Below are positions 2,239-61,310 of a stretch of DNA of 64,000 nt, in pieces. The notes under the pieces were generated by a model. That model worked only from the letters and a program-made list of their open reading frames with translations. It was not told the origin of the DNA and ran no database searches. Location of the stretch: the NCBI GenBank assembly GCA_016584305.1, contig JACEEZ010011094.1, positions 153,795-217,794 on the forward strand. The letters are read 5' to 3'. How positions within the stretch are numbered: position 1 is the stretch's first letter; the number at the start of each line of letters is the position of its first letter. Position numbers and translations under genes: made by a program. This DNA comes from Chionoecetes opilio (lineage: Eukaryota > Arthropoda > Malacostraca > Decapoda > Majidae).

Positions 2239-2240
2239 GC

Positions 2241-2706
2241 TTAACCCCTTGAGACCCAGTACGTAATTTCCATTGTAATTTGAGTACCATTAGGCGCTGT
2301 TTAGTGAATATAAGCAATATTTTATAGATATGACCTGTTTACCGTAGATAACACTATAGTCGCCAGTCACTTGCCACTGTACTAATGTCGCCAGGCACAA
2401 CATATGAATTTTAGCATCACTACAGAATTTTACGTGCCACTGAAGACATGTAGTGTGATGTACATAATATAAACTACTGTGCATGTCTCTTCAGTGGCAC
2501 ATACAAGTCTGTAGTAATGCTAAAATTCGTAATATATTGTACCTGGCGACACTAGTGCAGTGGCGAGTGACTGGCGACTAGTGTTATCTACAGTAGTAGC
2601 CTTGTCTACTAACTAATTTGGTATATTCAGCTACTTTTAGTAATTTTATGGCTAACAACAGACTATTTTATATAGCCAAGGAAAGATCTGGGCGTGAAGG
2701 GGTTAA
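2241..2706. repeat. piggyBac-like MITE with nested foldback MITE
   Basis: TTAA (2241-2244) CCCCTTGAGACCCAG ... CTGGGCGTGAAGGGG TTAA (2703-2706). The host MITE is split at its TA by a 252-bp palindromic element (2342-2593) starting CCGTAGATAACAC and ending GTTATCTACAG. TA is duplicated on both sides (2340-2341, 2594-2595). Unsplit copies, such as 9603-9811, read ...CCTGTTTAGTATCC... across the same point, which gives a direct empty-site comparison. A TA duplication fits Tc1/mariner-type MITEs. The two arms of the inner element pair over almost their full length. Confidence 0.75.
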
Positions 2707-3007
2707 GAGTTATTCATAATTCATTCAGCCACGGTCTTACTCACGCGAGCTGATCTCCATATTCTCAATGAACATGGTAAAAAATCTTGTTTCTATTCTC
2801 TGCTACCCGTATGTCTAGCTCTTTACTGTCTGTCTACCCATCCATCCATCCCTCCATCTATCTGTCTATCTATCAGTTTTTAATCCACTCTTCTTACTGT
2901 GACTCACCTTTCATACTGTCCTTCCATGGCTTACCGCCGCTTTTATATTAGATACAATGTTTATATGTGGCCTGTGTCTCCTTGCTGCACGTCAAAATTG
3001 TGTGTTG

Positions 3008-3275
3008 GGGGTTGTGGTTAATGTGGTGGAGGCTGTGGTTAATGTGGTAGGGTGTGTAGTTAATGTGGTAGAATGTGTGGTGGGGTTTGTGGTTAATGTG
3101 GTAGTGTGTGGTGGGGGCTGTGGTTAATGTGGTAGGGTGTGTGGTGGAGTTTGTGGTTAATGTGGTAGGGTGTGTGGTGGGGGCTGTGGTTAATGTGGTA
3201 GGGTGTGTGGTGGGGGCTGTGGTTAATGTGGTGGGGGCTGTGGTTAATGTTGGGGCTGTGGTAGTGTGGTTGTGG
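3008..3275 (+). repeat. GTGGTTAATGTGGTAGGG minisatellite
   Basis: Tandem, partly degenerate 18-33-bp units built from GTGGTTAATGTGGT and GGGTGTGTGGTGGGGGCT. The same array appears at 7720-8030 (direct), 36670-36890 and 59110-59680 (inverse), with different unit numbers, and a shorter related array lies at 15640-15765. Long Val-Val-Asn-Val ORFs across it are translations of the repeat. Confidence 0.9.
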
Positions 3276-3920
3276 TGGGGGTTGCCGGGTGTCTGTGTGG
3301 AGGGTTTATGGAACTGTCGTCGATGGGAATTCTCGCCGAAACACCAACCTAGAACTCTCGCCGACGTTGAAATGTTAACCTAACCTGGACATTGGTACCT
3401 AACTTAACCTAACTGATCAAGCTATTGCTGGTATTTCATCCCTGAATACAGAAACACGGGTAAATCCTGATTGAATGTAGCCTATATATTGGGTGCTGTA
3501 ATATCAAGAATTGGAACACTCGATGACGGCGGCGAGTGTTCCGATCGGCGACAGCTTCAGGTACCGTGTGGAGAGGTATTTGGGGTGCGCCTTATTGACT
3601 TCTGATTGACTCCTATACTCCTATGTTTGTTTGGTTACAGGGAGTTTTGTACACAAGTTAATTCGTACCCAGGTTTTGTTAGTTGTTTCGTACACTGATT
3701 TTGAGTTTGTTCGTACATATCTGGTGTCGAATCGTACCTTTGGTAATCAAGTTCAACTCTGAGCTGAGTGTACGATGAAACTATGGTTTCATATAGACTA
3801 CGAAACAACTTTTTTGTGTACGAATCTACTGGTGTACGAAACAACTGGTGTACGAACTGACGGCATCCGTTTGTTTTCACTGGTTATTGTTTTGAAGGAG
3901 TGGGGATTCTGGTTATTATG

Positions 3921-5959: not shown

Positions 5960-8651
5960 TGTGAGCCATAAATGTACAAAGAGTAACTGAATATCCGCAA
6001 ACTATTAGTGGACAGGTGCATAAGACGGTCATATCGATAAAATATTGCTTAAATTCACTAAAATGTCTAATGCTTAACAAATTACATATAATTACGTTTC
6101 TGGTCTCAAAGGGTTGAAATTTTTTTTGATATATGGGTAGCTATCAATAATGAGGCTGCCGTTATTGATCTCACTATATAATCCACACTTCCTATGCTAA
6201 TTCCTCTACTCCTCTTCCTCCTCCTCAACCACCACCGATCAGGCTCTCTCCTGTCCGCCAGCTTCTCTCTTCTTCTTTTCCACTTCTTTTGTCCACCTGC
6301 CGTCGCTCCTCCTCCTGCTATGCTCACACCACCTTTCAGTCCTCGCTTCCTCCTCCTCACTCCTCCTCCTCCATCCTCCTCCTCCATCTCTCCTCCTCCT
6401 CCACACACAGTCCCACCACCACCACCTCCTCCTCCTCCATACACACAACCACCACCCCACCACCACTACTACCACACCTCTCCTCCACCACCACCAACCT
6501 CCACTCTCCTCCTCCTCCCCTCCTCCTCCTCCTCCTCTCCTCTCACATTCTCTTCTGCTTTCTTCTTCTTCTTCTTGTCCACCTCCACCCCCACCACCAC
6601 CACCACTCATCACCACCACCACCACCACCCACCTTCCTCCTCCTCCTCCTCCTCCTCCTCCTCTCACCACCACCACCACCACCACCACCTCCTCCTCCTT
6701 TGCTATGCCAAAGTGTTTCCTTCCTTTCTTCCTTTCTTCATCAATGTTTCCTTTCACTCCTTTCTTCTTCCTCCTCCTCCTCCTTTCCCACTTTCTATGT
6801 TATTTTCGAGAGAGAGAGAAAGGGAATCTCAGGTGTAATCTTCCTCCCATTCTTCCAATAATCATCACTTTTTTATCATACATGACTGCTTATAATAGTG
6901 ACTCGAGTTGCTACTTATAATTTTGTCTTATTGGCGAGTATTCAGCTAAACCCCTTGAGACCCAGAACGTAATTTCCATTGTAATTTGGGTACCATTAGA
7001 CGCTGTTTAGTGAATATAAACAATATTTTTTAGATATGACCTGTTTATCGTAAATAACAGTATAGTCGCCAGCCACTTGTCACTGCACTAATGTCGCCAG
7101 GCACAATATATTATAAATTTTAGCATCACTACAGAATTTTATGTGCCACTGAAGACATGTATACGTAGTGTGATGTACATAATATAAACTATTGTGCATG
7201 CGTCTTCAGTGGCACATACAAGTCTGTAGTAATGCTAAATTTCGTAATATATGGTGCCTGGCGACATTAGTGCAGTGGCGAGTGACTGGTGACTAGTGTT
7301 ATCTACAGTAGCATCCTTGTCTACTAACTAAATTGGTATATTCAGTTACTTTTTGTAATTTTATGGCTAACAACAGACGATTTTATATAGCCAAGGAAAG
7401 ATCTGGGCGTGAAGGGGTTAAGAGTTATTCATAATTCATTCAGCCACGGTCTTACTCACGCGAGCTGATCTCCATATTCTCAATGAACATGGTAAAAAAT
7501 CTTGTTTCTATTCTCTGCTACACGTATGTCTAGCTCTTTACTGTCTGTCTACCCATCCATCCATCCCTCCATCTATCTGTCTATCTATCAGTTTTTAATC
7601 CACTCTTCTTACTGTAACTCACCTTTCATACGGGTCGCTTCACTGCTTACCGCCGCTTTTATATTAGATACAATGATTATATGTGGCCTGTGTCTCCTTG
7701 CTGCACGTCAAAATTGTGTGTTGGGGGTTGTGGTTAATGTGGTGGAGGCTGTGGTTAATGTGGTAGGGTGTGTGGTTAATGTGGTAGAGTGTGGTGGGGG
7801 CTGTGGTTAATGTGGTGGGGGCTGTGGTTAATGTGATAGGGTGTGTGGTTAATGTGGTAGGTTGTGTGGTGGGGTTTGTGGTAGTGTGTGGTGGGGGCTG
7901 TGGTTAATGTGGTAGGGTGTGTGGTGGGTGTTGTGGTTAATGTGGTAGTGTGTGGTGGGGTTTGTGGTTAATGTGGTAGTGTGTGGTGGTGGCTGTGGTT
8001 AATGTGGTAGGGTGTGTGGTGGGGGTTGCCGGTTGTCTGTGTGGAGGGTTTATGGAACTGTCGTCGATGGGAATTCTCGCCGAAATACCAACCTAGAACT
8101 CTCGCCGACGTGGAAATGTTAACCTAACCTGGACATTGGTACCTAACTTAACCTAACTGATCAAGCTATTGCTGGTATTTCATCCCTGAATTCAGAAACA
8201 CGGGTAAATCCTGATTGAATGTAGCCTATATATTGGGTCCTGTAATATCAAGAATTGGAACACTCGACGACGGCGGCGAGTGTTCCGATCGGCGACAGTT
8301 CCAGGTACCGTGTGAAGAGGTATTTGAGGTGCGCCTTATTGACTTCTGATTGACTCCTATACTCCTATGTTTGTTTGGTTACAGGGAGTTTCGTACCCAG
8401 GTTTTGTTAGTTATTTCGTACACTGATTTTGAGTTTTTTTCGTACATACCTTGTGTCGAATCGTACCTCTAGTAATCAAGTTCAACTCTGAGCTGAGTGT
8501 ACGAAACGACTATGGTTTCATATAGACTACGAAACAACTTTTTTGTGTACGAATCTACTGGTGTACGAAACAACTTGTGTACGAAACTGACGGATCCGTT
8601 TGGTTTTCACTGGTTATTGTTTTTAAGGAGTGGGAATTCTGGTTATTATGG

Positions 8652-10405: not shown

Positions 10406-11808
10406 TCAAAAGTGGATCTTCATGTGCCTGGCAATATCCTTCTTTGTCTTGAAACACTTGCTACAAATATCACACTTGAACTCCCGCAAGCCAGTGTGTC
10501 TAAAGGTGTGTCTGGTGAGTTCATTAGTGGTATAAAACCTTTTCCCACACTCTAGGCATTCATGATTCTTAACACCACTGTGCATCAGGGTGTGTGTGGT
10601 GAGGGAACTCTTATGAGTGAACTTTTTCCCACACTCTAAACATTCATAATTCTTAATACCAGTGTGTGTCAGGGTGTGTTTGGTGAGGTTACTCTTTTGA
10701 ATAAATTTTTTCCCACACTCTAAACATTCATAATGCTTGACACCACTGTGTGTCAGGGTGTGTTTGGTGAGGTTACTCTTTTGAGTAAATATTTTCCCAC
10801 ACTCTAAACATTCATAATTTTTAACACCACTGTGTGTCAGGGTGTGTGTGGTGAGGTCATTCTTTCTAGCAAATCTTTTCCCACACTCTAAACATTCATA
10901 ATTCTTGACACCACTGTGTGTCAGGGTGTGTGTGGTGAGGTAACTCTTATGAGTGAACCTTTTCCCACACTCTAAACATTCATAATTCTTAACACCAGTG
11001 TGTGTCAGGGTGTGTTTGGTGAGGCTACTCTTTTGAGTAAATTTTTCCCACACTCTAAACATTCATAATTCTTGACACCACTGTGTGTCAGGTGTGTTTG
11101 GTGAGTTTACTCTTTAGTAAATTTTTCCCCCACACTCTAAACTTCTATTTTTAACCCCAAATGTGTGTCAGGGTGTGTGTGGTGGGGTCATTTTTATCAG
11201 ATTTTTTTCCCACACTCTAACTTCATAATTCTTAACCCCACTGTGTGTCGGGTGTGTTTGGTGAGGTCCCCTTTCTAGTAAATCTTTTCCCACACTCAAA
11301 CTTCAAAATTTTTACCACTGTTGTGTCGGTGTGTGTGGTGAGTTTCACTTTTGTAGTAAATTCTTTTCCCACACTCTAACATTCATATTCTAACACCCTG
11401 TGTGTCGGGTTGTTTGGTGAGGTTACTTTTTCAGTAAATCTTTTCCCACCTCTAAATTCATATTTTTGACACCCATTTGTGTGTCAGGAGTGTGTGGTGA
11501 GGTTACACTTGTGAGTAAATCTTTCCAACCTCTAACTTCATATTCTTCCCCACTGTGTGTCAGGTGTGTTGGGTAGAGACGCTTTGACAAATTTTTTCCC
11601 CCTCTAACATTCATAAATTCTTGACCCCACTTTTTGTAAAGGAATTCTCTCAAGGTCTCTTGTGTTTGAATTGCTTTTGTCACCTTGCTGGCACTTCAGC
11701 TTCCTCTGTGCCTTGTGCTTGAGCCTGCCGCCCTAGGTTGATTCTTGCCATCACCCTGTGCCTCCCCACCCCTGAGGCAGACTGATCCTGCTGCTCCCGG
11801 CCACTCAT
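10406..11808 (-). pseudogene. C2H2 zinc-finger protein, copy 1 (frameshifted 5' half)
   Basis: A probable nuclear DNA-binding protein. The 3' half (10406-11062) is open and encodes one partial and seven complete C2H2 fingers. Most are of the form ECLECGKRFT..S.LT.H.LTH with linker SGVKNY; the last two are more divergent (ECLECGKRFYTTNEL and CDICSKCFKTKKDI), and the protein ends at HMKIHF. Upstream (11063-11690) about seven more finger units are recognisable but are broken by many 1-2-base indels. The presumed start is the ATG at 11808, equivalent to the start of the clean copy at 63305, with the same Ser/Gly-rich lead. The first frame break in the downstream half lies in an A-run where one base is missing. 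It could be a real gene with consensus errors or a decaying duplicate. Fingers of this near-identical type are typical of lineage-specific arthropod expansions. Confidence 0.7.
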
Positions 11809-18606: not shown

Positions 18607-19337
18607 ATGGCGGAAGGGACTAAAACATTAGCTGCTAAATTAGGTTGGCTTACACGAGTATATAATACGTGTGAGGCAGCAGCTGGGACTAACCCTATAG
18701 ACTATAATAGTTTAAACTCAGGTCTGCTAATGCTAAACACTAAAGGGGAAAAATATGAGACGGCTTACTGCATATATGAAGTTAAATTAAGACAAGCTGG
18801 GGATAAAGAAATTATTCAGCAATGTGTTATCAATCATGAACACGAATGTCAAAGATATCTCGATAAAGTAATTGAATATGAGGGATTACTGGAGTGTGCT
18901 CATATTCCATCTACAGCTAAAGCTTCTTTAACCCAAAGTGTGCAAGGTATTAAGCCAGAACCCCCCCACAGGGAGATCACGATTATTACGCCTGAAGGTA
19001 ATCAGCTATATCAGCCACCCACAGAGTTTAAAGATCCCTCGTTAGTGGGTAGTTATCCTGCGCCTACTACGCAAATCAAACAGCCTGTAATTACGATTCA
19101 AACATCTCAGCCTACCAGTAAACCACTTAGACCTACTCAAATAATAGATACAAACCGTACATCAAGGGCGACTTCTAGTGAAGTACGAATAATAAATTGT
19201 GTCTTATGTAAGGGGGAACATACGCCCTCCACATGTAATATCTATTCAGATTGTTACGCCAGAGTTGAAAGGTTAATGCGCCTTGGTAACTGCCTAACCT
19301 GTCTCCGTGGTAAACATGCTTCAAATGCATGCGTTAT
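18607..19337 (+). pseudogene. BEL/Pao-like gag, truncated by CT microsatellite
   Basis: The Gag part of a BEL/Pao-type LTR retrotransposon, which would form the cytoplasmic particle. The ATG at 18607 follows a ~345-bp leader after the primer-binding site. About 240 codons are gag-like. The N-terminal 130 residues are mostly helical without a named motif, then comes a Pro/Thr-rich linker. Then there are two zinc knuckles: CVLCKGEHTPSTC and, after a spacer with ARVERLMRLGNC, CLTCLRGKHASNAC. Paired knuckles with this spacing are usual in BEL/Pao polyproteins. Directly after the second knuckle the sequence turns into CTCTCGTTAT/CT repeats. The frame stays open to 19845 only as Leu-Ser repeats. 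No protease, reverse transcriptase or integrase follows. Confidence 0.7.
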
Positions 19338-21497
<2,160 letters not shown>

Positions 21498-30835: not shown

Positions 30836-33800
30836 TCAGAAACAATATCTAATTCTCCTCCCCGCTTGCAGCTTTGGATTAGACATAACTGGAAGAATGT
30901 CACCCCCAGGCAGCCACAATCTGTCCACTTTTGATGGAAAAGCATGGGATCCAGACTTTCCTTGGGGCCCGAGAAATGAGACAAGCAAATCTCCAAATTC
31001 ATCAGACAACTCCTCTATCATTGCAAACCAAAGCTGTTTCTCATAAACGCATCCCACATATGCACCCACAACAAGTTCTCCCTCCTCCACCACAAAGTCA
31101 TCTTCCAACTTGTCATCAGATTTCAGACTTGATACCGAACGTCCCATTTGCTCAGTTGACACCTTGAACACCTGGAGTGTCCCAAATGGCTCCACAGGCA
31201 CAAATCTGTGGTACTGCTGAGTACTTTTGACAGGCACAGCTTTCATGAAACGCTCCGCAAGGGATTCTTTTTTTAGTGCAACCATTTCTGAAGAAACATA
31301 AAAGAATTTAATTTTTTATTCAAAAGATTTTGTTACGAAATCAAACATAGCCAAGGGAGTTAGGATTTGATTTGCATGTAGTCGTTGCATGCTTGCCTGG
31401 GCCACTGCTCTCTTGACCGTCCCACCAATTCCGTCACAGGCATTTTTGCCATGTGATGTAGCGAAGAAATTCCATTCACAGTCAAAAGAGTAGTCAGTTT
31501 TGTGATAGCACAAGTTCAAGAAGTTGTATTTGTTTTTATATTGTCCAGCGCATCCATCAGAAAAGTAGTGGATTTTCCTTAGAGCAGGATAGTTGTCCTT
31601 CAGATGTCCAAGAAGTACTTCCAGAAAAGCATGTACAGTCTCTGTTTTGTGGTGAAGTTCGTCAGAAATTAAGCAAAAACTCCTGTGCTCTGTGACATCA
31701 TTCTGCTTGTAGTACAAGACGAAGGGATGGATTGTCGCTTGAGAATTTTCCCAATGGAATCCCTGTACTTCGTCTTGTATTACAAACGAATAATTCTCAG
31801 AAAAGTCTCCCACAACAACACAGTCAGTCTCAGAAAGGTTGTGCTTCAAGTCCTTGAAGTGTTGCCCCTGAGTCCTCGAGATGTAGCTGTGTCTTGTCAG
31901 TTTGTAAATGCTGTCAGCAAGTGAGTCAATGTAGTCGTCAGTGCTTGTTGTAATTGTCTCCATTTTTGTTCGGTCTGTTGAAACCCACTTCTGGTAGGTA
32001 ATGTTGTCCAAGTCATCAAATATGTCCAATGTCTCCAGAAATTCTTTCACTCCATTCACACCCGGGGGCGGGCAGTCATTACATTCGTGCATCATGCATT
32101 CCTTCTTCACAACATCACACACTGCATGCCCCATCAGAACCTTGTAGGTCAAATCTTTTATGCCCATGGCAGCAATTTGCAATTTGGGGTTCTGATGGTG
32201 CTGGCAAACACAAACAGATTGAGTGCCTGAGCTGCCGGATAAAACACACCACTTTGGCCTCAAGCTTGCAAACGTTGAAAACCCAATGTTAGGCATAGTT
32301 TGATCCCTTTTATAAATCTCGTATATTTCACGCAGGTTTCCTAAGATTAATCTCTTCTGCATTTTTACTTTCTCCTCATCAATTCTAACACTCAAACAAT
32401 TTTTTCTGCCTGGGCATAAACGACTAATCTCATCTTGCTCGTAGAAGGAAACCACTTGTTTCTTCTGTTCCTTGGAGAGGGCTCTTCCTTTGGACATAGA
32501 AGGTACTTGTGGGAGAATTCCATGCAGCTTCTTCAATTCCCTGCTCCGTTTTACCATTCGAAGACTTGCTCCAAAAAATTCTTTTGTTTGTTCTTGGGAG
32601 TATGGAGATAGGGTAAGGATGTGCAGTTTTCTTGTGTTGTTGTTTGTTGAGTTGGTCTTCCTTCAATTCTTGCATCATTTTTTCATAACATCGCAGCTTG
32701 TGTTCCCTGTAAATAAAAAAGACGTTAAATATTAAGGGTGTAAATTATAGATCCATCTCCTGTGTGGAAGCTATGTAAAAAAAAATGTGAAGAAGAGAAG
32801 TAAATTATAGAATGATAAACAGTCATAAACTGAATATGATAAGTAGATTTTTATTTATAGCTGTATATACTCTATACCACACTTTTGTGTAAGAGTTATT
32901 TTTTATCTAAAAATACAAGTATTCACTTTTGTTTGATAAAATATTATTATAGAAATGTTGGCAACAGGCAGGATGTAATTTTAGAAATGAGTGCTGAAAT
33001 TAAAGTCATGGTTCCAAGTCACATTCTAAGTCTTAATATAGTTTTAAAAGTCATTTTTAAAAGTCAATTATCCCATGGATTTTAAATAACAATTTAAGTC
33101 AAATGAGTCCTTATTTATAAGTAGAAGTCACTAAGTTAATTTTATCATGAAAAAATTAAAGTCATCTAAAATTATGCCCTGGGTGACTGTATGGGGTATA
33201 TAGCTGCTAGTTTGGGCCGTGATGCCCATATATACAGCACTTGAAGAAATACCTCGAGCAATACTCCAGCCAAGGCCGAACGGAAGGACAAGGGGAAAAG
33301 CAGCCAGGCTACTACTTGTTAGATAACTGTCAAGGGCTCTTTTGAGAAATAATTCACTAGGGCATTTACTTACAGATCTTTCACATTTTCTTTCAGTCGC
33401 TTCTCTTGTGGTTCTTCAATCAGTGTGCCATATGATCTGGACAACTTTCTTTTGACTGTTTTGGTAACATTGGCCAGCTTAGAGCTCCCTTTGGCACGTT
33501 TTTGAGAATCAGTCAAGCCATCTGAAACATAAAGAAATTTGAAATAAATGCTCAAGAAATATCACGAAGGATAATTTTGTTCCTGTGCTCATAGTCATAT
33601 ATAAAACAAGACAGCAATAACAAGGGTGTCTGACATGTACTTAGAACTTGTACTCTTTTTCGAGAAGAAATTGTTAGGCACGTTGAATAAACTCACGCAA
33701 TTTGACTGGTGTTTCATGTAGTGCTGGCAGAACCTGCTCCAGTGTGACCTCTGATTCTTCATCGTCTGTGGACATTCCATTTCCGGTTTCTGGTATCGGT

Positions 33801-35626
33801 GTGATGCCAGGGTTTTTAAGTTTTGACAACTGTGTGTTGGAATGAAATTTTTTGAGATAATTCTCCACTGACGAATAAATTCTTCTCGTTACGACTGAAT
33901 TGGAATGAACTTAGTTTAGTCGGGAATTGCTGCCACCAGTCCAAGCGGGTATTCCTATGGTCTACCCCTTGAACATGATTTAATATATAAGGATTACGGT
34001 AGTCGTGGGGATACTATTAGTATACCGAGTAAGTCTGAACCTCTCTTGGGACGTGGGGAAATATTTCCATAACAGGGGAATAGTCACCTGGTGTTTTTGC
34101 AAGAAACAAAGAATCTCTACTTTAACTCATTTGGTTTATTTAACAAGAAATTATTCCTTGTTGAAACTTAACTACATGTATGGTTTAATTTAGTGAAGGA
34201 AAGCTTCTAAAGAGCATAGCCTACCTCACTGGACTATATTCCTAGACCTACCATCTACATACATACAAGATGAACACCTAAGATATACATGGAGAACATA
34301 GGGAAGGGAAAATGTGAGAGTAATGAAACTGTTTGCGAAACACGACCATGTGGGACCACGTGTTCCACTGTGAGGCGTCCACACGCTTGCCTTGCGGGTT
34401 GATAAAGAAAGAATCACCATAATTAGTCTCGGGGGACTATCGCTGGTATAAGCTACCTATCCCATTTAATGAACACTCAACACAATATGTCCGTTGATAT
34501 ACTTCTATCCTATCACAAGGGGAATGGGGGAAAGGGGGGAGGAGACGAATGTCGACACACCTTACCTTGCGGGTTGATAAAGAAAGAATGCCTTCTCCTG
34601 GTGGGTCATGGCGCGCTGAGAACCACTAACGCGGGAAATAAAAAATGTTTTGATACTCATGAGAGGCTTCCCCAAAGGGGATGTGAATCGTCGAACGACT
34701 CTTATTAGCTGGGGAAATAAATATACGTACGAAGTGAGTATTACCCAATTCTCTTAATTTGATGAAGGAAAAATTTAATTCATAACTATAATCCACGGGG
34801 AGGGTTTTACTTCATCCAGAACGGCCATACGAACACGCTTTTAACAGTGACGGGGTATTTGGAGGCGTGAGAGAAACTTTGCCGACTCTTAATTCAGCGA
34901 ATGACTCTACTAATCTATGCATTAATATGCGAAACACAACTCTATTTTGTCTTTTTTTAAGGACGCTCAGAATCTAAGAGTGTTATTCGATCTGCCAGGA
35001 GGATAAGGGGGGAAATAGAAGTTTTGACTACAAGTTATTGGCAATCGCGAAATTAATGTCTCACATATTATACCTCGTGACTCTGGCGTTTGGGGGGGGG
35101 GGGGGGGAGGAAGGAGGATGGAGGGGGGGGAGATAGGAATGCAAGAGAGAGAGAGAGAAAAACATACGGATGAAAGATAAATAATACGAGAAATGAAATA
35201 ATTTGAATGGCCTTATCCTAATAAATAACCTGTTCCCCTATATACTGGATTTAGGCAACACTTAGTCTAGATTAAACCTATGGTTATTGAAACCTTCTCT
35301 TTCCTTTCATAGACATAACTCGGAAATCGTGTGATGGAAATTTCCATCATTACTCTTGGAATTTTCCGGCACTACATCGGAGCTCCAGAAGTGGAGGGAG
35401 GGCAGCTTATTTCATCTTCCGAGCTTGTGCTTGTGCTGCTAGAGGCCTGTCTTTGTTCAGGCTGACCCTTGACTTTAGCCAAACGGCTTCTTCAGTTATT
35501 GCATATCTTTGCCCCTTTTTTCAGGGCATATGTACCTACCAAATCACTCGACACTGAGCCAATAAAGTTGAATACTCCTTTCTTGTATAACTTGAATGGA
35601 TCAACACAGTACCCTTTTCTACCCAT
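30836..35626 (-). pseudogene. Multi-exon transposase-like gene, interrupted by solo LTR
   Basis: The ATG at 35626 opens a frame with Cys motifs (YCVDPFKLYKKG, KICNN then TGA where the next Cys of a C-x2-C is expected, 35494-35492). Exon 1 runs to 35377, is split by the LTR, and resumes in frame at 33795-33697 (donor GTGAGT). Exon 2 is 33521-33374 (donor GTAAGT). Exon 3 starts at 32707 after ATTTACAG. Phases match at both joins. Exon 3 has a one-base shift in an A-run near 32632, then 413 codons from 32557. Candidate catalytic residues, numbered from there, are D251 (VVGDFSENY), D334 (FSDGCAGQYKNK), HGK 369-371 and D375 (CDGIGGTVKR). An in-frame TAA (31318-31316) precedes the C-terminal 160 codons, which end at 30836. 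An RNase-H-like transposase is inferred; homologues are multi-copy in invertebrates. Dead as assembled. Confidence 0.65.
33800..35376 (-). mobile_element. Solo LTR inside exon 1 (TSD TCGG)
   Basis: Read on the minus strand it begins TGTAGTGCCGG and ends CCCTGGCATCACA, like the LTRs at 37462-42253. TCGG is duplicated at 33796-33799 and 35377-35380. 1577 bp. Taking it out with one TCGG restores one open frame in the transposase-like gene. The region holds poly-G (35090-35130 on plus) and no ORF of note. It is left after recombination between the two LTRs of a full element. Confidence 0.8.
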
Positions 35627-35933: not shown

Positions 35934-37461
35934 TTAATATTAGTAAATTTTATTGTTGCAACCCATAGTCAAGTGGTCAATCTTCATTTTTTGCGTGAAT
36001 ACATTTTTTTGTCAGGTGGGGGCTTAAAGGTCAAAGGTCAAATTCAAAAGAGGTCAACTCTTATATTTCCTTTCCAAATTGAATTACTAAAATTCTGTAA
36101 GTCTAGGAAGATTACCTGGCTTATTCTAAGCAAAAAACATGTAAAACATTTTGTTCTAGTTCTTATAATAAGGAAGCTATGACCTTTCAAAAAATGTTAA
36201 GGTCAAGGACATTTTGACCTTTTTTCGAAATTTCACGAGGCCATAACTTTTGAACTATAAGAGATAGAGAGCTGAAATTTGCAGAATAGGTTTGTTTGGC
36301 CAAAAGCACCCTGGGAGCCAATTTTCATGCAAATCCGAGACGGTGTGGTGTTAAATCTCATTTTTCTTGGACCACTTGTTTTGGAATGCCCCCATAATAA
36401 CCAGAATTCCCACTCCTTAAAAACAATAACCAGTGAAAACAAACGGATGCAGTCAGTTCGTACAAAAGTTGTTTCGTACACCAGTAGATTCGTACACAAA
36501 AAGGTTGTTTCGTAGTCTATATGAAACCATAGTCATATTAAGATAGTACCATAAGTTAGGTACCAATGTCCAGGTTAGGTTAACATTTTCACGTCGGCGA
36601 GAGTTCTAGTTTGGTGTTTCGGCGAGAATTCCCATCGGCGACAGTTCCTTAAACCCTCCACACAGACACCCGGCAACCACCACCACGCACCCTACCACAT
36701 TAACCACAGCCCCCACCACACACCCTACCACATTAACCACAGTCCCCACCACACACGACCACATTAACCACAGCCCCCACCACACACTACCACATTAACC
36801 ACAAACCCCGCCACACACTACCACATTAACCACACACCCTACCACATTAACCACAGCCCCCACCACATTAACCACAACCCCCACCACACAATTTTGACGT
36901 GCAGCAAGGAGACACAGGCCGCATAATATAAACATTGTATCTAATATAAAAGCGGCGGTAAGCCATGGAAGGACAGTATGAAAGGTGAGTTACAGTTAGA
37001 AGAGTGGATTAAATACTGATAGATAGACAGTTAGATGGATGGATGGATGGATGGGTAGACAGACAGTAAAGAGCTAGACATACGGGTAGCAGAGAATAGA
37101 AACAAGATTTTTTACCATGTTCATTGAGAATATGGAGATCAGCTCGCGTGAGTAAGACCGTGGCTGAATGAATTATGAATAACTCTTAACCCCTTCACGC
37201 CCAGATCTTTCCTTGGCTATATAAAATCGTCTGTTGTTAGCCATAATATTACGAAAAGTAGCTGAATATACCACATTAGTTAGTAGACAAGGCTACTACT
37301 GTAGATAACACTATAGTCGCCAGTCACTCGCCACTGCACTAATGTCGCTAGGTACAATATATAACGAATTTTAGCATTACTACAGACTTAATTGTTTGTG
37401 CCACTGAAGAGGCATGCACAGTATATAGTTTATATTATGTACATCACACTACATGTCTTCA

Positions 37462-39024
37462 TGTAATGCCCGGAAATTCGGAAGAGACAGGATGGAAATT
37501 CCTATCATACAATTCCCGGGTTTTGTATCTGTAAGAAGGAAAAAGGTTTCAATAACCATATGTTGTTCTGGGGCAAGTTGTCGCCTAGGCCCAGCATATG
37601 GAGGAACAGGTTATTCTTATTATACTAAGGTCAATCAAATCTTTTCTGTTCTCGTAATATTTATCTTTCTATCACTTTTCTTTCTTTCTCCCACTTCTAT
37701 CTCCCCCCCCCCACTCCCCCCCATACACCCAGAACACGAGTCCAGATGTGTGGGACATTTATTTCGCGACCTTCGATAACTGGTAGATTCAAAACTTTTC
37801 ATCCTCCCCTTACCCTCCTGACAGATCAAGGAACACTCTTAGATTCTTAATGTCCTTCAAAATAGACACAATAGTGACAGATCACGTTTATAAATGGGTG
37901 GGTTAGTCGAGTTATTCGCTAAATTGAAAGTCGACCAAATTTCTATTCCGACTCCGATACCTCGTCGCTCTGGAAAACACGTTCGTAGGCTGAAACAAAA
38001 AGGGAGAACATCTCTCCCCGAATATTAGAATAAATGTATTAAATTCTTCTATATCAAAGTAAAAGAACTGTATTATAGGCAGCCATTTCATATGCATACT
38101 TGTTTCATTAGCTAATTAGAGTCATTCGAGGTCTTATACTCCCTTCAGGGGAAGCCTTTAATAAGGATCCGAACATTCCTTTTTTTCCCGCTTCTCCCAA
38201 CCTCGCCTTGGTATACCACGAGGAAGTCAGTCTCTCACTCACTTCCCTCAAGGTAAGATATGCAGCAACTCGCTCCTATTTCCCCCCCCCCTCCTTGTTA
38301 TAATATATCTATCTATATACCTATATATATAGGTACAGTTGTTAGGTTTCATTAACGCATAGGAGGCCTGGCCGGTCCTTATAAGTGTTATTAAAAGAGT
38401 CTCTCACTCACTTCCCTCAAGGTTCCGGCGGATGTCTCAGTCTGTAGAAAAACCCCGCCACATGTTTTAGTGAACGCGAACAACATCATTACTTTTACAT
38501 TCCCCCCCCCCCCCTATATTTTCCATGTATGCCTACGGTGTTCAGCTTGTGTATACGTAGATGGTAGTTCTAAGAATATAATTCAGTGAGTTAGGTTATG
38601 CTCTGTAGAGCTTTCCTGCGCCGAATTAGAGTTTATATATGTACCTAAGTTTCTCAAACAAGAGAAATAATATTTCATGGTGAATAAACCGGATGATGTT
38701 TAAAGTATAGCTTCTTGTGTTTATTGCAACAACCCCAGGTGATTATTCCCTTGTTATGGAAATACTTCCCCAAGTCTCAAGAAGAGTTTCAGCCTCACTC
38801 GGTGCAATACTAAGTATCAACCCCGAGTACCAAATAATCATCATATAGGAAATCAAGTTCATAATTAAATCTCCGCATCGAGAAGTGTTCGTACTATAAT
38901 TAAATAATGAAGTCATATGACTAATTTCAACTCTTGTAGTTTTGCGGTGGGATTTTTTTTAGTATCGGTCATAAGATACAATAAGTACAATAAGTTTTCA
39001 AGAACTAAAAACCCTGGCATCACA
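37462..39024 (+). repeat. 5' LTR
   Basis: 1563 bp, TG...CA. Nearly identical to the 3' LTR up to about 38850. After that, ~170 bp differ (GTGTTCGTACTATAATT...GATACAATAAG) until the shared end CCCTGGCATCACA. It contains poly-C runs and TATATATATAGGTACAG (38325-38340). Confidence 0.8.
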
Positions 39025-39199
39025 CTGGTGACTTAAGCGGTGGTGTATTATTTCCTACAAATAACAGCAACAGAATCTCACTTGCGAAAATAGCTAGATA
39101 AAGTCAAATTTCGGTAAATTTTCATACAGTAGTCGATCATTATAGTAGGTTCATTAGATCTTTCCCCCTATAAACCAAACACCCTACACACATGAACCA

Positions 39200-39432
39200 T
39201 GACCATGTGGCAGTGAGCTGTAAGAAGCGAGCCGACACAGCCGTCACAGCCGTCGCCGCCACAGCCAGCCGCCGCCGCATCCACCTCAGCCCGGCCGCAT
39301 GCCGCGCGCCTAGCCGCCACGCTCGCCTCAGCTACGCCGCCCTTCACCGCCATCCCGCCGTAGCCGCTTTCCTAGCCGCTACAGCCGCCGCGTCTAGCCG
39401 CCACGCCACCCACACGCCTCGACACCGCCAAC
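39200..39432 (+). promoter_or_regulatory. GC-rich leader upstream of the fusion ORF
   Basis: A run of GCC/CGC-rich sequence (about 39235-39430) in otherwise AT-rich DNA, with GCC triplet repeats, ending at the ATG. It could be a 5' untranslated leader or another captured piece. An overlapping Ala/Arg-rich frame (39192-39521) is explained by the triplet bias. Confidence 0.35.
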
Positions 39433-39858
39433 ATGTCGAAGAAAGGACGTGGAGCCTCGTCAGGAGGGAAGTCCTGGATCTCCCTCAGCCTTCCCGCGGA
39501 CGTCGTCATGAGTTACGCTAATAACCCAAGCGCTAAGAACATGTACATCATCGCAGCTGTGAACGACATCGTGGACGCCACCTTCAAGAAGGGCGACACA
39601 GGCTCAGGCAGGGACACACTCTTAGTTTCCAAGATCCTAGAAGCGTTCCCAGACAAGAAAATGGTTACCTTCTCGGTTGTCCCATCGCCTAAGGTATCCG
39701 ACCCGATGGTCCAGCCGTATAACGCCACACTATCCACCCACCATCTGACCGAAGACGCCGGCGATACTTGCTGCATCGATAACAAGAAGCTCGACGACAT
39801 CTGCTTCCGCACGCTCAAGCTACAGAACCCGACCTACGGAGACCTCCTAGAAGACTAA
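39433..39858 (+). CDS. RPL23-like / beta-tubulin-like fusion ORF
   Basis: 141 codons, intronless, GC-richer than its surroundings, ATG in a good context (CGCCAACATGT). Residues 1-64 resemble ribosomal protein L23 (uL14): [18 protein letters not shown] at the N-terminus, [10 protein letters not shown], then a gap of ~17 residues and VDATFKKGD. Residues 65-138 resemble beta-tubulin from the GGGTGSG loop (here GDTGSGR) through [29 protein letters not shown] and DICFRTLKL to PTYGDL, about residues 142-225 of ~445. It ends LLED-stop. L23 is a structural part of the large ribosomal subunit and tubulin a GTP-binding polymer subunit; the fusion keeps neither a full fold nor an intact tubulin glycine loop, so neither function is expected. 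It lies between two LTRs, consistent with capture of host mRNAs. Expression is unknown. Confidence 0.7.
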
Positions 39859-40682
39859 TCGAGGAGTGTTCAGTATGCAGTGTTAGTTAAATGTTAGAAA
39901 ATCAAGGAAGAATAATTTTGAACATGAACATTGATAATTTATTTTATGAACTTGAAAGGAAAATATCTACTCTGTTTCGGGTAGTTGTATACCCAGGTAG
40001 GAGGTTGATTGGGATACCAGTCTCTCATTGAATTTCATTAACGGACTCAGTCTGGTTCGGTGAGTCTTCAAGGTATTTTAATTCAAGTTACAGTCAACCC
40101 GACTTGTGGTGTATTCATGGGAAGATTAAGCGAAAAGTGTTAAATGTAGATTACTGAGTCAAGGAGGTGAGTGTGTGTCGGAATAGATGAAACAATTTGG
40201 TCTAGGAAATTTCTCATTTCTAGAATTCGGTATATCTATTTTCACGGGCTCAGCCTGGTTCGGTGAGAGGAGTATTTTAATTCGAGATAGTAGTCCTGCT
40301 TCTCAACTTTACAGTCAACCAGCTTGCGGTGTGGCGGATATTTCAGGACTTGTTGGGCTCTTGTCATTTACCATGAGGCTAGCCGGCGTGCGCCTCTGGG
40401 ATATTCCTAGCAACGAGAATACGGGTACTGAGTCAGGTTTTGACGACCACGTTACTACCCAGGTAGTAGGTTGATTGGGATACTTCCCTTTTCATTGGAT
40501 ATTCGTGTAATCTAAACACATTCAGATACCCGTTTCAAAGAATAGAAGAATCTCTATTAAATTCACCATAAATTCGTCCCATTCAGACACATCCTCTTGA
40601 CACAGCTTTAGAAAGGAAACGGGAGATCAGTGAGTAGTAAATTTGATATTGAAGAATTTAATTCTCCCGGAGAATAGACGTG

Positions 40683-42253
40683 TGTAATGCCCGGAAATTC
40701 GGAAGAGACAGGATGGAAATTCCTATCATACAATTCCCGGGTTTTGTATCTGTAAGAAGGAAAAAGGTTTCAATAACCATATGTTGTTCTGGGGCAAGTT
40801 GTCGCCTAGGCCCAGCATATGGAGGAACAGGTTATTCTTATTATACTAAGGTCAATCAAATCTTCTGTTCTCGTAATATTTATCTTTCTATCATTTTTCT
40901 TTCTTTCTCCCACTTCTATCTCCCCCCCCCACTCCCCCCCATACACCCAGAACACGAGTCCAGATGTGTGGGACATTTATTTTGCGACCTTCGATAACTG
41001 GTAGATTCAAAACTTTTCATCCTCCCCTTACCCTCCTGACAGATCAAGGAACACTCTTAGATTCTTAATGTCTTCAAAATAGACACAATAGTGACAGATC
41101 ACGTTTATAAATGGGTGGGTTAGTCGAGTTATTCGCTAAATTGAAAGTCGACCAAATTTCTATTCCGACTCCGATACCTCGTCGCTCTGGAAAACACGTT
41201 CGTAGGCTGAAACAAAAAGGGAGAACATCTCTCCCCGAATATTAGAATAAATGTATTAAATTCTTCTATATCAAAGTAAAAGAACTGTATTATAGGCAGC
41301 CATTTCATATGCATACTTGTTTCATTAGCTAATTAGAGTCATTCGAGGTCTTATACTCCCTTCAGGGGAAGCCTTTAATAAGGATCCGAACATTCCTTTT
41401 TTTCCCGCTTCTCCCAACCTCGCCTTGGTATACCACGAGGAAGTCAGTCTCTCACTCACTTCCCTCAAGGTAAGATATGCAGCAACTCGCTCCTATTTCC
41501 CCCCCCCCTCCTTGTTATAATATATCTATCTATATACCTATATATATAGGTACAGTTGTTAGGTTTCATTAACGCATAGGAGGCCTGGCCGGTCCTTATA
41601 AGTGTTATTAAAAGAGTCTCTCACTCACTTCCCTCAAGGTTCCGGCGGATGTCTCAGTCTGTAGAAAAACCCCGCCACATGTTTTAGTGAACGCGAACAA
41701 CATCATTACTTTTACATTCCCCCCCCCCCCTATATTTTCCATGTATGCCTACGGTGTTCAGCTTGTGTATACGTAGATGGTAGTTCTAAGAATATAATTC
41801 AGTGAGTTAGGTTATGCTCTGTAGAGCTTTCCTGCGCCGAATTAGAGTTTATATATGTACCTAAGTTTCTCAAACAAGAGAAATAATATTTCATGGTGAA
41901 TAAACCGGATGATGTTTAAAGTATAGCTTCTTGTGTTTATTGCAACAACCCCAGGTTGTTGATTCCCTTGTTATGAAAATACTTCCCCAAGTCTCAAGAA
42001 GAGTTTCAGCCTCACTCGGTGTAATACTAAGTATCCACCCCGACTACCAATAATTCTCATATAGTAAAACGTGTTCAGGGAGTAAACCATAGAACTACTC
42101 GCCTGGGCTGGTGGCAGCATTTCCCCCTATTAACCCTAAGTTCTTACCAATTCAGTTGTGACGAGGAGGTTTTATTAGTCAATGAAGAATTATCTCAATT
42201 TAATATTATTCAACCCAAAGGTGTCAGTAACGTAAAAAAACCCTGGCATCACA
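40683..42253 (+). repeat. 3' LTR
   Basis: 1571 bp. Matches the 5' LTR to about 42062, then carries a different ~190-bp segment (AGGGAGTAAACC, CTCGCCTGGGCTGGTGGCAGC, CCAATTCAGTTGTGACGAGG) before the shared CCCTGGCATCACA end. That segment is also in the solo LTRs at 33800-35376 and 42986-44799. No strong polypurine tract precedes it. Confidence 0.8.
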
Positions 42254-42985
42254 TTCAGTGGCACATCAAATTATGTAGTGATGCTAACATTCGTAATATA
42301 TTGTGCCTGGCGACAATAGTGCAGTGGCAGGCGACTGGCGACTATAGTGTTATCTACGGTAAACAGGTAATTTCTATAAGATATTGCTTATATTCACTAA
42401 ACAGCGTTTATATAATGGTACCCAAATTACAATGGAAATTACGTTCTGGGCCTCAAGGGGTTTAGCTGAACACTCGCCAAAAAGACAAAATTATAAGTAG
42501 CAACTCGAGTCACTATTATAAGCAGTCTTGTATGATAAAAAAAGTGATGATTATTGGAAGAATGGAAGGAAGAGTACACCTGAGATTCCCTTTCTCTCTC
42601 TCTGGAAAATAACATAGAAAGTGGGAAAGGAGGAGGAGGAGGAGGAGGAGGAGGAGGAAGAAAAGAGTGAAAGGAAACATTGATGAAGAAAGGAAGAAAG
42701 GAAGGAAACACTTTGTCATAGCAAAGGAGGAGGAGGTGGAGGTGGTGGTGGTGGTAGAGGAGATGGTGCTGGTGGTGGAGGAGGAGGAGGAGGAGGAGGA
42801 GGAGGAGGAGGAGGAGGAGGTGGTGGTGTGGTGGTGGTGGTGGAGGAGGTGGACAAGAAGAAGAAGAGAAGCAGAAGAAGAAGTGGAGGAGGAGGAGGAG
42901 GAGGAGGAGATGGAGGTGGTGGTGGAGGAGGTGGTGATGGAGGAGGAGGTGGTGGTGTAGGAGGAAGAGGAGGTGGTGGTGATGG

Positions 42986-44799
42986 TGTAATGCCCATTAT
43001 TCGGGAGAGATAGTATCAGAATTATTATCATATAATTCCCGAGTTATGTCTTGTAAGCAGTTCATTTTTTTTAGTTTCACGGGTGACTCATCGCCCTTCT
43101 CTCTACACCGCCATTTTTTCTCATCTTTTTTCCTTCCTACGCGCCAATTTGTTTATCTTCTTTCGTTCATTCCCCGCCATTTCTTTATCCTTTCTCCACT
43201 CCCCCCCCCGACATGCCGGGTGCGAGTCAAAATTCGTGGGATAATTATTCCGCGATCAGTGATAACTAATGGGTTCAATCTTTTCATCTTTCCCCAGCTA
43301 ATCTGATCAGATCGAGGAACACTCCTAGATTCTTAATGTCTTTCAAAATAATCCCCATCCTTATCGATCATGTTCATACATGGATGTGTTAGTAAAGTTA
43401 TGCGCTAAATTGAAAGTCTACCAAATTTCTATGAAACACTTCCATACCCTCTCACTCTTGAAAACGCGTTCGGACGTTTGACATGAAAAGTAAACACACC
43501 CTTCTTGGGTATTAGATTAAACATATTAAATTCTTCTATATCAAAGTAACAGGTCTGTATTATAGGCAGCCTTTTCTTAGGTACGCGAGTTTCATTATTT
43601 AAATAGTTATTTCGGGATTATAAGCTATTCATTTGAGGTCACGTCGAGACCATTCAAACAACTCCCCTTTTATGCCGAGGGCCATGACACCATGAGGAGT
43701 CAGTCGTCTCTACACTTCATTATAGGTAAGACCTCTGTACCTCGCTCCTGTTTCCCCCCTTCCTTAGTATATTATATCTATATATCTCTCTCTCTATATA
43801 TATATAGGTACAGTTCAGTGTCACTAACGCATAGAAGGCCTGCCCCATCCTTATAAGTGTTATTAACGTGAGTCGTCTCTACACTTCATTATAGGCCGAC
43901 ATCTTGTCCTTGACGGAAAAGGCCACATGGTACTATGAATCCACACCACAACTCATTACTCTCACATTTTCTCCCCTATATATATATCTTCCATGTGTAA
44001 TTATAAATATTCACGTATATTACTTAAGTGAAGGATAATTCCATTAGTAGGATTCAGTGAGGAGGGTTTATGCTCATAAGAGCTTCCCTTCATCAGATAG
44101 GAAGAGCTTCCTTCAGCACATAGGAAGAGCTTCCTGTATCAGGGTGTAAAGTTTTTTCTTACATCCGATTAGAGTTTTTCCGATGTTGGATTAACCCTTA
44201 TATGTTGTATGTGATCTCAAGCAAGAGACATACTATTTCAGTATGAATAAATAGGATGATGTTTTCAAATATAGTCCTTGGTGTTTATTATAAACCCCAG
44301 GTGATTATTCTGTGTTAGGACAGTAATTCCCCACACTTCCAAAAGAGTCAGCCTCACTCGTATAGTTCCACGTATCAATCACGACTACCAAGATAAATCT
44401 AATCTTAATATTATCAAACGCGCCCAGGGAGTAAACCCAGAGAACTACTCGCCTGAGCTGGTGGCGCATCCCCTTAACTCACACCCTGTTCCCTTAACCT
44501 AAACCCTTACCCCTTCCCCTTAAACACTTCCCCCATTTCATACTCTCGCAGTGAGAAGTGGTCAAACTATAATCACATAGTGAAGTCATAAGACTAAGTT
44601 AAATCCTCCATTCAAGTTGTAATCAAATGAAAAATCATAATCAATTAATATCATTCAAGTAACGTTGACCAGTTATAAACTCCCCATAGGAGTTACCAGC
44701 AACACACTGGTAGTTTTGGTGGGAATTTTTCTTGTATCGGTCATAAGATACAATATTCATTTAAAGCCTTTTCGAAAAACCACAAAATTCAGGCACACA
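42986..44799 (+). mobile_element. Divergent solo LTR (TSD ATGG)
   Basis: 1814 bp, starting TGTAATGCCC and ending AGGCACACA. ATGG is duplicated at 42982-42985 and 44800-44803 in the AGG-rich tract. It is a diverged relative of the 37462 LTR and holds, in series, both of the alternative 3' segments found separately in the 5' and 3' LTRs above (44425-44470, then 44545-44755). A small tandem of GGAAGAGCTTCC units lies at 44085-44135. Confidence 0.75.
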
Positions 44800-58470: not shown

Positions 58471-61310
58471 CCATAATAACCAGAATTTTCACTCCTAAAA
58501 AACAATAACCAGTGAAAACAAACGGATGCAGTCAGTTCGTACACAAGTTGTTTCGTACACCAGTAGATTCGTACACAAAAAAGTTGTTTCCTAGTCTATA
58601 TGAAACCGTAGTCGTTTCGTACACTTAGCTCAGAGTTGAACTTGATTACTAGAGGTACGATTCGACACCAGGTATGTACGAAAAAACTCAAAATCAGTGT
58701 ACGAAACAACTAACAAAACCTGGGTACGAATTAACTTGTGTACGAAACTCCCTGTAACCAAACAAACATAGGAGTATAGGAGTCAATCAGAAGTCAATAA
58801 GGCACACCTCAAATACCTCTCCACACGGTACCTGGAACTGTCGCCGATCGGAACACTCGCCGCCGTCGTCGAGTGTTCCAATTCTTGATATTACAGGACC
58901 CAATATATAAGCTACATTCAATCAGGATTTACCCGTGTTTCTGAATTCTGGGATGAAATACCAGCAATAGCTTGATCAGTTTGGTTAAGTTAGGTACCAA
59001 TGTAAAGGTTAGGTTAACATTTCCACGTCGACGAGAGTTCTAGGTTGGTGTTTCGGCGAGAATTCCCATCGACGACAGTTCCATAAACTCTCCCTCCACA
59101 CAGACTCCCGGCAACCCCCACCATACACCCTACCACATTAACCACAGCCCCCACCACACACCCTAACACATTAACCACAGCCCCCACCACACACCCTACC
59201 ACATTAACCACAGCCCCCACCACACACCCTACCACATTAACCACAGCCCCCACCACACACCCTACCACATTAACCACAGCCCCCATCACATTAACCACAG
59301 CCCCCACCACACACCCTACCACATTAACCACAGCCCCCACCACACACTACCACATTAACCACAGCCCCACCACACACCCCACATAACCACAGCCCCCACC
59401 ACACACCTACACATTAACCACAGCCCCCACCACACCCTACCACATTAACCACACCCCACATTAACCCAGCCCCCACCACACACCCTACCACATTAACCAC
59501 AGCCCCCACAACACTACCACATTAACCACAGCCCCCACCACACACCCTACCACATTAACACAGACCCCACCACACCTATCACATTAACCAGCCCACACAC
59601 TACTACCAAACCCCACCACATGAAACACACCCACCACAGTAATCACAGCCTCAACCACATGTACCAAACCCACCACACAATTGACGTGCAGCAAGGAGAC
59701 ACAGACCGCTAATATAAACAGTGTATCTAAATAAAACGGCGGTAAGCCAGAAGACGTACGAAAGGTGAGTTACAGTAAAAGAGTTGGTTAATACTGTAGA
59801 TAGACAGTTAGATTGGAGATAGATAGCAGTAAAGAGCTAGACATACGGGTGCAAGAATAGAAACGATTTTTTACCGTTCATTGAGAATATGGAGTTCACT
59901 CGCGTGAGTAAACCGTGCTGAATGATTTGATACCTTAACCCTTCACGCCAGATATTCCTTGATATAAAATCTTTGTTACCTATAAATTACGAAAGGATAT
60001 ACCATTTATAGACAAGGCTCTACTGTAGATAACAACTATAGTCGCCAGTCACTCGCCACTGCCACTAATGTCGCCAGGCCCATATATTACGATTTTAGCA
60101 TTACTACAGACTTGTATGTGCCACTGAAGACGCATGCACAGTAGTTTATATTATGTACATCACACTACATGTCTTCAGTGGCACATACAATTCTAAAATT
60201 CTGTAGTGATGCTAACATTCGTAATATACTGTACCTGGCGACATTATAGTGCAGTGGCAAGTGACTGGCGACTATAGTGTTATCTACGGTAAACAGTCAT
60301 AGTTATAAAATATTACTTATATTCACTAAACAGCGTCTAATGGTACTCAAATTACAATGGAAATTACTTTCTGGGTCTCAAGGGGTTTAGCTGAACACTC
60401 GCCAAAAAGACAAAATTATAAGTAGCAACTCGAGTCACTATTATAAGCAGTCTTGTATGATAAAAAGTGATGATTATTGAAGAATGAAGGAAGATTACAC
60501 CTGAGATTCCCTTTCTCTCTCTCTGGAAATAACATAGAAAGTGGAAAGGAGGAGGGTAGGAGGAGGAAAAAAGGAGTGAAAGGAAACATTGATGAAGAAA
60601 GGAAGAAAGGAAGGAAACACTTTGGCATAGCAAAGGAGGAGGAGGTGGTGGTGGTGGTGGAGGAGGTGGACAAGAAGAAGAAGCAGAAGAAGAAGTGGAG
60701 GAGGAGGAGGTGGACAAGAAGAAGTGGAGGAGGAGGTGGACAAGAAGAAGTGGAGGAGGAGGAGGAAGAGGAAGAGGAAGAGGAAGAGGGGGAGGAGGAA
60801 GAAAGGAAGAAAGGAAAGAAACACTTTGGCATAGCAAAGGAGGAGGAGGTGGTGGTGGTGGTGGAGGAGGTGGACAAGAAGAAGAAGCAGAAGAAGAAGT
60901 GGAGGAGGAGGAGGTGGACAAGAAGAAGTGGAGGAGGAGGTGGACAAGAAGAAGAAGTGGAGGAGGAGGAGGAGGAGGAGGAGGAGGAAGAGGAAGAGGA
61001 AGAGGGGAGGAGGAGGAGGAATAGCAGAGGAAGTGTGGATTATATAGTGATGTCAATAACGTCAGCCTCATTATTGATAGATAGGCTACCCATATAAAAA
61101 AAAAAATATTAACCCTTTGAGACCCAGAACGTAATTTCCATTGTAATTCGGGTACCATTAGACAATTTTTAGTGACTATAAAAGCAATATTTTATAGATA
61201 TGACCTGTTTAGTATCCTTGTCCACTAACTAGTTTGCTATATTCAGTTACTTTTTGTAATTTTATGGCTAACAACATACATTTTTTTATAGGAAAAGTAA
61301 GATCTGGGAA
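57965..61310 (-). repeat. Composite dispersed repeat, copy C (inverse)
   Basis: Inverse order of copy A without large insertions: TTAA-MITE half, SINEs with CA (58110-58127) and CT (58418-58466) tracts, GTACGAAAC motifs (58535-58745), minisatellite (59110-59680), TTAA MITE with foldback MITE (59935-60389), AGG-rich tract with an internal ~180-bp direct duplication (60590-60780 and 60795-60990), and a TTAA MITE ending at 61309. Indels increase at 59340-60000. ORFs of up to 264 codons in the AGG tract are repeat translations. Confidence 0.75.

Follow-up and report, generated by a model that had tools for sequence, protein, structure and literature searches.

The window analysed here, a stretch of 64,000 nucleotides from the crab Chionoecetes opilio, holds at 39433-39858 an open reading frame in which parts of a ribosomal protein and of beta-tubulin are joined between long terminal repeats (LTRs), and this raises the question of how pieces of two housekeeping genes came to share one frame inside a retroelement and whether their product is kept for a use. 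The frame is uninterrupted and encodes 141 aa, and the features of the element around it are given below in order of position.

37458..37461, no strand: target-site duplication TTCA, left copy
37462..39024, plus strand: 5' LTR, TGTAATGCCC...TGGCATCACA, unlike the 3' LTR in its final ~165 bp
39025..39050, plus strand: candidate primer-binding site CTGGTGACTTAAGCGGTGG..., from a motif pattern
39220..39432, plus strand: GC-rich (73%) leader ahead of the ATG, fast-changing among copies
39433..39858, plus strand: chimeric ORF, 141 aa, the sole frame of at least 130 aa in the window element
39433..39594, plus strand: uL14/L23-derived part (L23 residues 1-68 minus 14 internal residues), by tblastn and phmmer
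39592..39846, plus strand: beta-tubulin-derived part (tubulin residues 140-224), by Pfam and phmmer
39859..40682, plus strand: 3' internal region holding no long frame; it also follows L23-headed frames for which no tubulin match is listed
40683..42253, plus strand: 3' LTR
42254..42257, no strand: target-site duplication TTCA, right copy

A preliminary description of this DNA had read the frame as an L23-like half joined to a beta-tubulin-like half, and when the two were searched for separately both matched, by phmmer in each case and by Pfam for tubulin only. ORF residues 54-138 aligned without gaps to beta-tubulin 140-224 (59/85 identical, E 5.5e-33, phmmer), with a Pfam Tubulin score of 44.8 bits (cut-off 33), and ORF residues 1-42 aligned to L23 1-42 (24/42 identical, E 4.9e-10, phmmer). 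The kinship of the N-terminal part to L23 is based on phmmer and tblastn, the Pfam and NCBIfam profile searches having returned no match for it. With tblastn of L23, residues 1-68 were found to be covered by 54 codons, so that 14 internal residues are gone; the internal gap described earlier is thus present, and the L23 part was found to end at about residue 54 rather than to extend over some 64 residues. The join reads AAGAAGGGC directly followed by GACACAGGC in five of the seven copies inspected, with one silent base different in the copy at L017 and two extra residues in that at L023, and its exact position is common to 31 of 32 aligned copies (the exception being L023). The bases GGGC at the join may stem from both parents, judging from inferred parent codons, and micro-homology at this point is plausible.

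Neither half keeps a complete parent fold, just tubulin 140-224 and a gapped L23 1-68 being left; the tubulin piece has lost the greater part of the GTPase domain and, in the loop, has GDTGSG in place of GGTGSG, and the L23 piece is without its C-terminal half. AlphaFold predicted no confident fold, either from the single sequence or with 32 copies (mean pLDDT 37 and 40). With no complete parent fold, an altered loop and no confident predicted fold, a functional tubulin or ribosomal protein was rejected as the nature of the product. A search of IMG/VR returned no relative.

The claim that the frame is housed between LTRs held, as paired LTRs (37462-39024 and 40683-42253) with TG...CA ends and a short duplication, TTCA, give the 4.8-kb element (37462-42253) the structure of an LTR retrotransposon. 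The two LTRs are 98.5% identical over 1401 columns (K2P 0.010 over 1394 sites), and three paralogues of the host repeat elsewhere in the window are without the element, their empty sites (2441-2444, 7150-7153 and 60174-60177) overlapping by 4 bases where it was inserted. Within this same insertion the last ~165 bp of the LTRs (38862-39024 vs 42078-42253) are unlike each other, parts of the 5' version resembling a neighbouring LTR at 44547-44755, which is the pattern that conversion or recombination would leave. The candidate primer-binding motif followed the 5' LTR in 56 of 61 copies by pattern search, several of them with TGGTGGCAGCGGTGGGAT, which we take to be the complement of a tRNA-Leu 3' end. 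No clean polypurine tract was seen before the 3' LTR, where the window copy reads ...GGAGAATAGACGTG and then TGTAATG; among frames of at least 130 aa the window element has no gag or pol frame, and Rfam and tRNA scans of the window gave no match. Other target-site duplications, read by eye, were CAAA (L020), TAGA (L022), TTTA (L013) and AGAG (L017). The GC-rich leader seemingly diverges faster than the 3' region (mean 0.38 vs 0.19), its repeats making that alignment unreliable.

When the 1.94-Gb assembly was searched with the ORF, the best 150 of 719 candidates were scored and gave 152 matches. The full ORF (residues 1-141) was spanned in 106 of the 150 listed entries, 103 of these being stop-free (window copy included) and three carrying a stop, and the other 44 were partial; the copy count is a lower bound and the rate of intactness is biased, as these are the best-scoring matches. 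Some of the places may be allelic duplicates, the ORFs of L021 and L047 being identical. At one further place, G000:C6416:53420-54078, overlapping matches to tubulin 58-279, with stops, cover the chimera match, and this may be a processed tubulin pseudogene or a longer capture.

Sixty of the 150 loci were retrieved (20 with ~8-9 kb and 40 with 2.2 kb), mostly the best, with some broken ones. The ORF was present in all 20 large loci and the window. Direct repeats on its two sides were seen in the window and in 19 large loci, L015 having no repeat pair. At L016 an outer repeat pair was rejected as the element's own LTRs, the element lying inside a gag-like frame and there being no 3' LTR match. 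K2P between the LTRs of a pair ranged from 0.006 to 0.128 (18 of 20 loci measured), so the family has moved over a long period, and the LTRs of eight loci compared were only ~65-87% like those of the window. Among frames of at least 130 aa in the 20 loci and the window, no element-own gag or pol frame was seen: a 164-aa antisense frame that overlies the chimera in L014 matched no Pfam family, and in L018 an antisense frame of 285 aa with a reverse-transcriptase domain (RVT_1) lies inside a 2.5-kb insert (L018:4855-7330) that splits the 3' region of the element. Multiple copies without gag-pol are what defines a non-autonomous LTR element, and the domain order of a Gypsy (Metaviridae) pol was not seen, as no element-own pol frame was found. 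The chimera is therefore no one-off: it is the established gene of a non-autonomous LTR family with many copies.

Selection on this gene was studied in 61 copies (the 60 retrieved and the window), of which 52 were open at 137-143 aa and 48 were kept; nine (L033, L044, L062-L068) were set aside, and from the open copies L027, L028 and L055 were dropped for shifted stretches and L047 for its identity to L021. The shifted stretches of L027 and L028 lie within the ORF, yet both are open to the original LLED stop. A comparison of dN/dS among copies, which the preliminary description had suggested as a check, gave a pooled value of 0.369 (codon bootstrap 0.258-0.519; 48 copies, 1128 pairs), with 0.374 (0.206-0.638) for the L23 half and 0.367 (0.237-0.578) for the tubulin half, the sample being similarity-ranked copies with open frames only and the bootstrap unit being codons, not lineages. 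Mean dS was 0.180, divergence in the 3' region 0.186 and dN 0.065, dS and 3' divergence being equal on average only, with their ratio going by bins from 3.8 in the closest pairs to 0.5 in the farthest. Binned by dS in the 52 copies, dN/dS was 0.80 under 0.03 (11 pairs), 0.35-0.44 at 0.03-0.4 and 0.49-0.59 above 0.4, the deepest bins being those that include the three copies with shifted stretches.

Neutral simulation (five copies, stops excluded) gave 0.84 at ts/tv 1 and 0.75 at ts/tv 2.1, and 0.65 or 0.59 with CpG made 3 or 8 times as mutable. For transversions the observed ratio was 0.237 (0.118-0.460), or 0.252 (0.097-0.753) without CpG contexts, and for transitions 0.619 (0.402-0.995), or 0.601 (0.322-1.059) without CpG contexts. 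The 11 mutual nearest pairs held ~42 synonymous and 55 nonsynonymous changes, a ratio of 0.39, with P ranging from 6e-6, against a null ratio of 1, to 0.026, against one of 0.59. Indels relative to the window copy were multiples of three in 21/21 cases in the ORF vs 94/388 and 66/416 in the flanks, in part because open frames were chosen (48 copies), and changed sites spared the sites conserved among alpha, beta and gamma tubulins weakly (P 0.033, 0.052, 0.13 and 0.17). An argument about neutrality from the window copy alone, which assumed indel rates, was set aside and dN/dS used instead. In the tree of open copies, whose root was placed for drawing only, a well-supported branch has on one side the 137-aa form with its 4-residue deletion, and several lineages keep the frame. 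Distances in the ORF and in the 3' region were partially correlated (Spearman 0.70, 1128 pairs), as recombination of lineages may give, which is no proof of it.

These data, good though not final, suggest that the chimera is under purifying selection, alike in both halves. A need for an open frame alone, such as in escaping RNA decay, is less likely because it would not itself push amino-acid change below neutral. The openness of the frame had been taken to hint at selection or at recent formation; it is the former that gained support (0.37, 0.26-0.52, against a neutral 0.59-0.84), and recent formation fits poorly with a multi-copy family whose LTR pairs reach K2P 0.128.

The order of the two captures may be read from relatives headed by L23 without tubulin. 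In a genome search with L23 alone (best 150 of 366 candidates listed), most listed matches covered L23 1-57/58 in 168-171 nt, without the 14-residue gap, and stood at the start of frames open for a similar length; nearly all of the listed places were distinct from the listed chimera copies, C3630 and C4274 being in both. At C3219, L23 1-101 was matched in 273 nt, with a stop. A search with the 3' internal region (best 40 of 1045 candidates, places paired by coordinates) placed 17 of the 40 listed matches by a chimera copy (that on C531 at 1.65 kb), 16 at 99-222 nt downstream of an L23-headed frame, with 90-98% identity, and 7 by neither. One of the L23-headed places, C14700:68722-69515 (98%, query 28-824), is closer to the 3' region of the window than any other listed chimera place. 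With this region found behind both types of frame, elements with the one and with the other share a body. Among the tubulin matches listed, none lies at the 16 L23-headed places, whose tails (99-222 nt) could not hold the tubulin piece of 255 nt, and since L23-headed frames keep parts of L23 that are absent from the chimera they are not derivable from it by simple loss. On these comparisons, capture of L23 before that of tubulin is the simplest order and the probable one. At C3630, ungapped L23 1-58 is followed 36 nt later, in the same frame, by tubulin from residue 138, which may be an intermediate or a recombinant, and the chimera at L059 (C15258), with the highest tubulin identity (74%) among the full-length chimera places listed, may be closest to the captured state.

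Starting from what was observed directly (the chimera, its LTR structure, copy number, shared join and amino-acid constraint, and its L23-headed relatives), we consider it likely that a non-autonomous LTR family took up two host genes by transduction and has retained their fusion as a working protein. A host L23 mRNA, and later a beta-tubulin fragment, would have been transduced by template switching during reverse transcription, and the chimera, at 137-143 aa in the copies analysed, would be the characteristic protein of the family, the element having taken it to over 100 places while purifying selection kept it in replicating lineages. The family is probably mobilised in trans by a Gypsy-type partner, which we infer from the 4-bp duplication only. 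Constraint in both halves of a protein whose element shows no gag or pol frame suggests that it is the element which this protein serves; its upkeep would be explained most simply if the chimera were translated and aided the element's own RNA in cis, possibly through RNA binding, packaging or recruitment to the particle of the partner. A bolder version, possible though doubtful, is that Gag has been replaced by a host-derived protein with an L23 head and exchangeable tails (L23-only, then L23-tubulin) that acts in cis for reverse transcription by the partner. If true, captured ribosomal and cytoskeletal pieces would have been turned into a retroelement replication protein.

The chimera might otherwise be captured junk, its openness and low dN/dS coming from youth, from the choice of open copies and from CpG or codon composition. 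Broken or partial copies are indeed common (44/150 entries partial and 3/106 full-span copies with stops), only open frames were analysed, the closest pairs (dS under 0.03) gave 0.80, the interval for transitions (0.62) reached 0.995, or 1.06 without CpG contexts, and strong CpG mutation brings the neutral ratio down to 0.59. We nevertheless regard a mere passenger as unlikely, as the upper bound of the observed 0.37, at 0.52, is below even that neutral value, transversions alone gave 0.24, and LTR pairs with K2P up to 0.128 are not those of a young family. Purifying selection in both halves would also be expected if a domesticated master chimera were maintained by the host and seeded the element copies; the ORF has a repeat on either side at all but one of the 20 9-kb loci, as it has in the window, and the frame is kept in several lineages of the tree (of open copies only), which makes host maintenance very improbable.

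The preliminary description had proposed a template switch during reverse transcription, and the GGGC overlap makes a switch at the join plausible; that one reverse transcription joined both mRNAs, with the L23-headed elements arising by later loss of tubulin, fits this overlap (parent codons being inferred) and is nonetheless quite unlikely, as L23-headed frames hold L23 1-57/58 ungapped, and at C3219 1-101, parts that the chimera is without, and at C3630 a single frame runs from ungapped L23 1-58 into tubulin. That two genes were falsely linked in the assembly, which the preliminary description had named as a possible undoing of its claim, is effectively excluded by at least 103 places with a stop-free match through the join and by the position of the join being common to 31 of 32 aligned copies.

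No such fusion, nor an animal equivalent, was found in the literature searched, which covered few subscription papers, and within that scope the earlier statement that this is not a known gene stands. The nearest precedent is maize Bs1, and LTR elements with several captured host fragments are already known. Bs1 carries fragments of three host genes in a chimeric gene reported to be transcribed and translated (PMC13317346, PMC5408686); the crab element is like it in fusing fragments of at least two host genes in one ORF between LTRs and unlike it in that Bs1 captured plant genes and the crab element is without a gag or pol frame. For plant LTR elements, transduced ORFs are reported to occur as one copy or a few (PMC7264820); the crab chimera is kept at more than 100 places. 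LTR-mediated retrocopies in animals arise when reverse transcription switches template at micro-similarities shared by element RNA and cellular mRNA (Tan et al. 2016 per PMC5408686), to which the switching proposed here would be alike; those cases are described as retrocopies, and the crab family propagates with a constrained two-gene chimera. With TRIM, LARD, TR-GAG and Helenus/Ajax elements it shares LTRs, a candidate primer-binding site, no pol and presumed trans-mobilisation, and differs from all of them in an internal ORF of host origin (PMC10886601, PMC6431247); the 4-bp duplication is also that of animal Helenus elements, which are thought to be moved by Gypsy (PMC10886601). Membership in TR-GAG was rejected, as the ORF matches L23 and tubulin, not Gag, and in Pfam matches Tubulin only. 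PMC6431247 also refers to LTR elements of bdelloids that carry captured ORFs. In sorghum, host genes captured inside LTR elements are, as in the crab, in some cases under purifying selection, but those form a genome-wide list and the crab case is one amplified two-gene chimera (PMC3726574). In the crab, an amplified animal family has as its characteristic protein a chimera of two conserved housekeeping genes, apparently constrained in its amino acids. This opens to test the path by which a host fragment turns into a protein of the element, and whether such a protein is able to act in cis where gag and pol are lacking, and the L23-headed relatives with the same body may show the before and after of a second capture.

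The element itself sits inside a repeat, parts of which recur many times across the window in both orientations. This surrounding repeat (37297-37461 and 42254-42462) has copies at ~2232-3406, 6448-7933 and 59467-60799 and includes an inverted pair, 37297-37408 and 42254-42361. Diverged solo LTRs of the same family lie at 33800-35376 (minus strand, CCGA) and 42986-44799 (plus strand, ATGG). A gag-like ORF at 18607-19845 (plus strand) continues into a long microsatellite encoding Ser-Leu repeats; a Pfam search of 18607-19305 matched no family, and a relative of this ORF (85% over 153 residues) surrounds the element at L016. A C2H2 zinc-finger ORF of 218 aa, with seven stretches matched by zf-C2H2, lies at 10406-11062 on the minus strand.
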